Source of the DNA: Phreatobacter stygius
GTDB lineage: Bacteria; Pseudomonadota; Alphaproteobacteria; Rhizobiales; Phreatobacteraceae
Reading direction: 5' to 3'
DNA length: 64,000 bases
NCBI RefSeq assembly: GCF_005144885.1
Contig: NZ_CP039690.1
Coordinates: 2,431,001 to 2,495,000, forward strand
A model generated the notes under the pieces. That model worked only from the letters and a program-made list of their open reading frames with translations. It did not search any database and was not told where the DNA came from. The position numbers and the translations under genes are program-made. Below, piece after piece: positions 26,280 to 27,591 of this stretch (position 1 is the stretch's first letter; each line of letters starts with the position of its first letter).

Positions 26280-26570
26280 ATGAAAGCGCTCATCGATGTC
26301 ATCGACATCGCCCTCAACATCTACAAGTGGGTGATCATCGTCTCGGCGGTTCTGTCCTGGCTCATTGCGTTCAACGTGGTGAATTACCGCAACCAGATCG
26401 TCGCGCAGATCGACCAGACGTTGCGGGCGCTGACCGAGCCGGTTCTGGCGCCGATCAGGGCGCGCATGCCCAATACCGGTGCGGTCGACCTGTCGCCGGT
26501 CGTGCTGCTGCTGGGCATCATCCTTATCCAGCTGGTGCTGGCCTACTACGTCCGACCCTATGTGTTCTGA
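26280..26570 (+). CDS. YggT family membrane protein
   Basis: A 96-residue protein with two hydrophobic segments separated by a short loop carrying the family pattern LTEPVLAPIRARMPNTGAVDLSP. YggT proteins are linked to cell-division or osmotic functions in different bacteria, without an established mechanism. Adjacent DUF167 (YggU) genes are a conserved neighbour in proteobacteria, seen here 9 bases downstream. Confidence 0.92.
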   Translation: MKALIDVIDIALNIYKWVIIVSAVLSWLIAFNVVNYRNQIVAQIDQTLRALTEPVLAPIRARMPNTGAVDLSPVVLLLGIILIQLVLAYYVRPYVF

Positions 26571-26579
26571 GCGCCGGAC

Positions 26580-27200
26580 ATGACGGCCGCGCCCTATCGC
26601 CTCGCCAATGACACGCTGCTGCTCGACGTCAGGCTGACGCCGCGCGGCGGCCGCGATGCCCTCGAAGGGACCGACCGGCTCGCCGATGGCCGTGCGGTGG
26701 TCAAGGCCAGGGTCAGGGCGGTGCCGGAGGACGGCAAGGCCAATGCCGCGCTCGAGCAGCTGGTCGCCGATAGGCTCGGTGTCGCCCGGTCGCAGGTGTC
26801 GGTGGTCCAGGGCAAGACCGCCCGGCTGAAGACGGTTGCCGTCCACGGCGATCCGGTGAGCCTGTCGGCGGCGGCGGCCCGCCTGTTCGCCGCGGCCGCC
26901 TTGGCCGTTGCGGCCCTTGGCATCAGCACCCCGGCCGCGGCCCAGTTCGTCACCCGTGGCGATATCTGCGCCAGCCCGACCGAATTCGTGCGCACCCGCG
27001 TCATGGTCGAACGCGCCGGCCTGTCGGGACCGGACAAGAGCCGGCTCGTCCGGACGCTGCGGTCGGCTCAGTCGCTCGCCGAGGAAGGCTGCCCGAACCG
27101 CGATGGCTGGCTGATCCGCCGCGCGGTCGGCATGCTCAATGCGGTCAACCGCGAAGTGCGCAACCCGCCGGTCGATCTGCCGCTGTTTCTGAGGGATTGA
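26580..27200 (+). CDS. DUF167 (YggU-like) protein with secreted-protein-like C-terminal extension
   Basis: A 206-residue ORF. Residues ~1-92 are a complete DUF167 domain (LDVRLTPRGGRDALEG, AVVKARVRAVPEDGKANAALEQL, then a late QGKTARLK). Residues ~93-118 look like a signal peptide (LFAAAALAVAALGISTPAAAQ), followed by ~85 residues with two Cys (ICASP, EEGCPNRD). An in-frame GTG at 26856 could start a separate secreted protein, though no ribosome site precedes it. Either a stop codon was lost, fusing two genes, or two nested products are made. The DUF167 part is confident; the tail is unrecognised. Confidence 0.85.
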   Translation: MTAAPYRLANDTLLLDVRLTPRGGRDALEGTDRLADGRAVVKARVRAVPEDGKANAALEQLVADRLGVARSQVSVVQGKTARLKTVAVHGDPVSLSAAAARLFAAAALAVAALGISTPAAAQFVTRGDICASPTEFVRTRVMVERAGLSGPDKSRLVRTLRSAQSLAEEGCPNRDGWLIRRAVGMLNAVNREVRNPPVDLPLFLRD

Positions 27201-27210
27201 ACCGCGCCGG

Positions 27211-27591
27211 TCAGCCCTTGCGGTCGTTCGATGCCGGTGCGCCGAAGCTGACCGCACCGTCGACGACCGCTACCGGGCCCTTGTGCAGCTTTTCGGCAAT
27301 GCCGTAGAGCTGCTCGCGCCGTTGCATCTCGGTCCAGACATCATCGGGGACAATGCCCATATCGACCCACAGCACGGTCAGATTGTAGAGCAGGTCGGCG
27401 CTTTCGCGCACCACAGCGTCACGATCGCCACACACGGCGTCGATGGTCACCTCGGCCGCTTCCTCGACCAGCTTCTTGGCCATTTTGGCCCGGCCGCCCT
27501 GCATCAGCCGCGCCGTGCGCGACTGGCCGGGATCGGTCTCCCGTGCCTTCAAGACGGCCTTGTGTAACCGCTGCATCGTGTCGGCCATCAA
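27211..27591 (-). CDS. hisE: Phosphoribosyl-ATP pyrophosphatase
   Basis: A 126-residue all-alpha NTP-pyrophosphohydrolase of histidine synthesis. The metal-binding pattern is LVEEAAEVTIDAV, followed by RDAVVRESADLLYNLTVLWVD, as in HisE/MazG-like folds. The C-terminal ~25 residues exceed the usual HisE length and are not conserved-looking. It is not next to other his genes, so it may instead be a HisE-like paralogue. The gene is convergent with the DUF167 ORF 10 bases away. Confidence 0.85.
   Translation of the reverse strand: MMADTMQRLHKAVLKARETDPGQSRTARLMQGGRAKMAKKLVEEAAEVTIDAVCGDRDAVVRESADLLYNLTVLWVDMGIVPDDVWTEMQRREQLYGIAEKLHKGPVAVVDGAVSFGAPASNDRKG

Follow-up and report, generated by a model that had tools for sequence, protein, structure and literature searches.

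A DUF167 domain fused in frame to an internal signal-type segment and a small, predicted helical domain, conserved in Phreatobacter

The closest described systems, besides the DUF167/YggU family itself, are of two kinds. The FbcH cytochrome b/c1 precursor of Bradyrhizobium japonicum is encoded by one gene and made as one chain, from which an internal signal-peptidase cut yields two proteins; the first of these spans the membrane several times (polytopic), and the two work in a single complex. Proteins of the ToxR, TonB and FtsQ class cross the membrane once in type II orientation, with the N-terminal domain in the cytoplasm. Members of the DUF167/YggU family are generally taken to be cytoplasmic, and DUF167 is listed as uncharacterised in Pfam. 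Among the titles and abstract beginnings covered by a limited literature search, no function was given for the protein (search terms DUF167, YggU and UPF0235) and a fusion of the kind reported here was not described (the same terms and Phreatobacter); a search on bacterial internal signal peptides returned nothing direct.

Here, we analysed a window of 64,000 nucleotides from Phreatobacter stygius (contig NZ_CP039690.1, positions 2,431,001 to 2,495,000), in which a DUF167 gene continues past its domain into a second half. The features of the locus, in window coordinates, are the following.

26280..26570, + strand: YggT-family membrane protein, directly upstream (Pfam YGGT, E 2.4e-19)
26580..27200, + strand: whole fused ORF, 206 amino acids plus stop, in frame in 12/12 genus genomes
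26616..26843, + strand: DUF167 domain, residues 13-88 (Pfam PF02594, E 2.8e-20)
26856..26858, + strand: GTG (codon 93), earlier proposed as a nested start; not conserved (GTG in 2/12)
26880..26942, + strand: putative internal signal segment, with basic residue 101, a hydrophobic core and AxA at 119-121
26934..26945, + strand: predicted signal peptidase I site A-A-A/Q, cut after residue 121 (base 26942)
26943..27197, + strand: tail (residues 122-206), a three-helix bundle by AlphaFold2, with invariant Cys 130 and 171, predicted periplasmic
27211-27591, - strand: downstream gene resembling phosphoribosyl-ATP pyrophosphohydrolase, stand-alone, TTG apparently its start codon

The fused ORF begins with ATG and runs for 206 codons without an internal stop. 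Its first half is ordinary: PF02594 matches with 72.7 bits (cut-off 30.9) over profile positions 2-75 of 76, the NCBIfam model PRK01310.1 matches residues 4-104, and residues 4-104 count as a normal member of the DUF167/YggU family (PF02594, COG1872). The standard domain occupies the first ~90 residues and closes with GD at 90-91, after which a short variable stretch follows. In place of the stand-alone DUF167 layout (~100 aa), the genus proteins measure 203-208 aa from the match start. The architecture described by the sequence-only reading was borne out, namely an intact DUF167 domain leading in frame into an uncharged stretch (residues 102-121) that ends in AxA, and then into an 85-residue tail with exactly two Cys.

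The same fusion, in frame and without a stop codon, is present in 12 of 12 Phreatobacter genomes (window included), whose homologues are 64-88% identical to the window protein. Two pairs, L004/L006 and L011/L012, are very alike, which brings the number of independent lineages nearer to ten. The split into two separate ORFs that had been suggested as a check on orthologues did not occur in the genus, since none of the 12 sequences has an intervening stop. A search of 101 genomes gave matches in 74: the 12 genus genomes were matched over the full length, free of stops, and the other 62 in the DUF167 part, with several alignments extending to residues 113-126, mostly across stop codons. In one genome (G046), the sole match is weak, and perhaps something other than DUF167. 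The in-frame fusion is, to near certainty, real and conserved in the genus, and these data support its being ancestral and fixed there.

Selection was assessed through pN/pS, computed as Nei-Gojobori proportions over the 66 pairs among the 12 genus sequences. DUF167 (alignment columns 1-90) has a ratio of 0.345 and the tail (columns 123-208) one of 0.323; the link (columns 91-122), at 0.714, is the fast-evolving part. The tail is thus about as constrained as the DUF167 domain, and the low values on both sides of the link argue that both ends are functional proteins. Invariant columns amount to 48/87 over residues 5-91 and 41/83 over residues 124-206.

Outside the genus, this layout was not encountered. 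The order comparison comprised 40 of the 62 matching non-genus genomes, and none of these 40 DUF167 genes carries such an extension, all frames ending 94-120 aa from the match start. At the level of the class, a DUF167 family search gave matches in 215 of 385 genomes; a hand count of the matches listed gave 150, of which 26 sit in open frames of at least 190 aa, the minimum needed for a tail of this size, and all 26 end 14-24 residues past the domain without such an extension. A profile of the tail found 12/12 genus genomes and gave weak matches in 5/385 other order genomes and, in a class search, in 2/384 other genomes (a few of these 384 also covered by the order search); in both searches, scoring was confined to the 13 or 14 top first-look candidates of each genome, so that a remote relative could escape. 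We attribute the five weak order matches to chance: the alignments of L051, L052, L053 and L055 to the tail do not pair both Cys and fall in long frames (231-559 aa) or in one of 32 residues, and L054 was judged by its score. A match in G024 that reaches residue 182 through two TGA codons was likewise set aside as chance, for what lies behind the DUF167 stop there is a FolD-like frame. When the profile was applied to 58 loci around non-genus DUF167 genes (40 genomes, 18 present twice), nothing better than E 0.013 was obtained. On sequence comparison, the tail appears to have no convincing relative outside the genus. Its absence from relatives, put forward earlier as grounds for doubting the fusion, therefore holds outside Phreatobacter and fails inside it, where the tail is found 12 times out of 12; absence elsewhere would be as expected of a lineage-specific extension.

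Two loci outside the genus hold ORFs with signal-peptide-like starts near the DUF167 gene. In L071 (genome G026), such an ORF, starting MASPFLIPPLFLAISLAVAAPALAE, lies in a different reading frame and overlaps the DUF167 end, which suggests a way in which a fusion of this type could arise. In L085 (genome G060), a separate ORF of this kind begins about 180 bases past the DUF167 stop. Neither ORF was found to have similarity to the tail.

The surroundings of the gene also differ between the genus and the rest of the order. The yggT stop codon sits 9 bases before the ATG of the fusion, and yggT precedes the fusion in the window as well as at each of the 11 other genus loci compared. No match to the downstream phosphoribosyl-ATP pyrophosphohydrolase-like gene was found in L011 and L038, which diverge most among these loci; there, the transporter gene begins less than 100 bases past the fusion. 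Of the 40 order genes, at least 17 are followed, within about 125 bases of DUF167, by a frame that we take to be FolD-like from a sequence motif. In the window genome, folD lies about 1 Mb from the fusion (G000:C1:3453453 vs 2457580), and in the other 11 genus genomes it is either on a different contig or at a distance of more than 0.5 Mb. As folD is distant in the genus and often adjoins DUF167 in the order, the fusion accompanies a changed neighbourhood.

The joint between the two halves was assessed by eye and with a hydropathy scale. The features of a signal peptide, i.e. a basic residue, a hydrophobic core and AxA at -3/-1, are found in 12/12 sequences, at residues 101-121 instead of at the N-terminus. 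Residue 101, directly before the core, is basic (R or K) in all 12, and from this basic residue to the predicted cut site there are 19-22 residues, uncharged in 11/12 (L010 has Asp at -2). None of the 26 ungapped alignment columns over residues 92-118 is invariant; over residues 119-123, four of five are, namely Ala -3, Ala -1, Gln +1 and Phe +2 (12/12). With a hydrophobic core that changes fast, a constant positive charge on one side of it and a constant AxA on the other, the joint looks like a used signal peptide. The core is moderately hydrophobic, with Kyte-Doolittle means for the best 12 residues ranging from 2.46 to 3.18 across the 12 genus members; in the C-termini of DUF167 frames elsewhere, the 12-residue mean does not exceed 2.09 (the 40 order relatives outside the genus) or 2.12 (26 further class members). 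The core is also short and Ala-rich, and a stretch containing Pro and Gly follows. In the full-length AlphaFold2 model, residues 106-125 fall below pLDDT 50, in keeping with two domains joined flexibly.

The tail itself is basic (pI about 10.4). Every genus tail has exactly two Cys, and the N-terminal part is free of Cys in 11/12 proteins (L011 has one). Modelled from 9 sequences, residues 121-206 gave a compact three-helix tail (pLDDT 89.0, pTM 0.80) with helices at 14-25, 30-53 and 56-72 in model numbering. The full chain was modelled less confidently (pLDDT 74.3, pTM 0.44), with a first half of strands and helices, a helix at 92-112 and the same three tail helices. In the tail model, Cys 10 immediately precedes helix 1 and Cys 51 is close to where helix 2 ends, a placement that makes a disulfide between the two plausible in terms of topology. 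Similarity searches were largely silent: Pfam gave a single sub-threshold match (E 0.27) in one of the 12 tails, the best NCBIfam match of the window tail was far below the cut-off (E 0.099), PDB sequences returned no match at E up to 10, and Foldseek returned none at E 0.001 or better (best E 1.2). The best VIA match of the tail model, a designed bundle (Z 7.8, rmsd 2.3, 64 aligned), is within the range expected for helical bundles, and the resemblance to staphylococcal complement inhibitors and DnaK lids goes no further than their being three-helix bundles. Within the genus, no second copy of the tail came up at a threshold of E 0.01, the best other match having E 0.017. Our guess is that the tail is a small basic periplasmic binding or adaptor domain.

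We propose, with a probability of roughly 0.6, that the protein is a translational fusion in which an internal Sec signal exports the tail while DUF167 stays in the cytoplasm, the chain probably being cut by signal peptidase I. According to this proposal, a DUF167 gene would have been extended in frame at its 3' end, in an ancestor of the 12 Phreatobacter genomes, into a Sec signal and an 85-residue helical domain. A single polypeptide would be translated from the DUF167 start and its DUF167 domain would fold in the cytoplasm; the hydrophobic segment, with R/K just before it, would act as an N-in signal-anchor and thread the tail into the periplasm, where the two Cys could form their disulfide. 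Signal peptidase I would most likely cut at AxA/QF (after Ala121) and free the tail, and DUF167 would then keep a short membrane tether, beside the yggT product. The sequences show a conserved fusion, selection on each half and conserved features of a signal; Sec export, topology, cleavage, the disulfide and any link with YggT are what we infer from them. Export of the tail is quite probable, and cleavage by signal peptidase I somewhat less so, although still likely. The strongest general objection to export is that signals placed far from the N-terminus sometimes fail: in the eukaryote Trypanosoma cruzi, the GP82 signal peptide was no longer recognised once it had been moved inside the protein (PMC6513831). 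The moderate hydrophobicity of the core and the Asp at -2 in L010 are also points against the model. A further step, to which we give a little less than even odds, is a two-compartment polyprotein, in which the gene would always yield, by internal cleavage, two products in equal numbers: a DUF167 protein in the cytoplasm and a helical protein, specific to the genus, in the periplasm.

Three other explanations have to be weighed. The least credible, to which we attach almost no weight, is that the open frame stems from a sequencing error, a local mutation or a functionless lost stop read through by chance; the early stops of all 40 DUF167 frames compared outside the genus would suit it, but 12 of 12 assemblies agree on the open frame, which refutes the error or local mutation suspected in the sequence-only reading, and the tail is under purifying selection similar to that on DUF167. 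The other possibility raised by that reading, a lost stop giving a membrane-anchored product, stands as regards a fixed, ancestral in-frame fusion (12/12), while anchoring or cleavage is a matter of interpretation. An uncleaved bitopic (type II) protein, permanently anchored, with DUF167 and the tail cooperating across the membrane like one-pass sensors, would draw on the same conserved fusion and the same evidence of selection, and the 19-22 residues, uncharged in all but one protein, would be enough for a short anchor. We nevertheless consider it unlikely, as the core is short and Ala-rich with a Pro/Gly-containing stretch after it, and as an uncut anchor needs no site such as AxA/QF, which is invariant within a fast-evolving region.

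Even less likely is a nested gene, i.e. an internal in-frame start from which an exported precursor of its own is made, in addition to the full-length chain or in its place. The GTG at 26856 that had been proposed for this role is indeed codon 93, yet it is GTG in two of the 12 genomes and GCG, GCC, TCA or GTC in the other ten, and so does not hold as a start for the genus. Its upstream pairing with the anti-Shine-Dalgarno sequence (-2.1) is ordinary relative to the in-ORF median (-2.4); weak pairing alone does not exclude initiation, because the true start of the window gene pairs no better (-1.9). In all 12 sequences, codons 73-88 do include one or more in-frame GTG or TTG, at differing positions, and in L011 and L012 a GTG pair at codons 75-76 follows GGAGG or GAGG (-10.2 and -6.6); these two stand out among internal candidates whose pairing is mostly ordinary. 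Against a nested gene, no start position before the cut site is common to the 12 sequences, ATG, GTG and TTG are absent between codon 89 and the cut site in 7/12, and GTG is not enriched among Val codons in columns 73-99 (25/57, vs 75/184 elsewhere; Fisher P 0.76). As a genus-wide mechanism, an internal start is supported neither by codon conservation nor by Shine-Dalgarno pairing. What is conserved is the continuous frame, not an internal start, although a nested start remains conceivable in a single species.

The fused chain offers a clean test of whether a signal placed behind a 100-residue domain still serves Sec and signal peptidase in bacteria. A fixed fusion to a domain with an export signal, beside YggT, also hints that the inner membrane is a place where DUF167 can act, and the tail provides a simple handle on DUF167, through finding what the tail touches. 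Were the polyprotein to be true, the dose of a widespread cytoplasmic protein would be tied to that of a new envelope protein.

Compared with known systems, the locus departs first from its own family: DUF167/YggU members checked elsewhere end soon after the domain, and the Phreatobacter protein adds a predicted export signal and an 85-aa domain. The type II layout was seen in none of the DUF167 genes of the order (40) and class (26, among the matches listed) sets checked. With the ToxR, TonB and FtsQ class the protein shares a predicted N-in topology and a C-terminal part predicted to be periplasmic; to our knowledge, the anchors of that class are not followed by a conserved AxA/Q site. FbcH differs from the Phreatobacter protein in its first half, which here belongs to a small soluble family, and the cleavage is in our case predicted only, from the conserved site. 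Whether of the one-pass or of the cleavable kind, the fusion joins a known family to a lineage-specific, probably exported domain.
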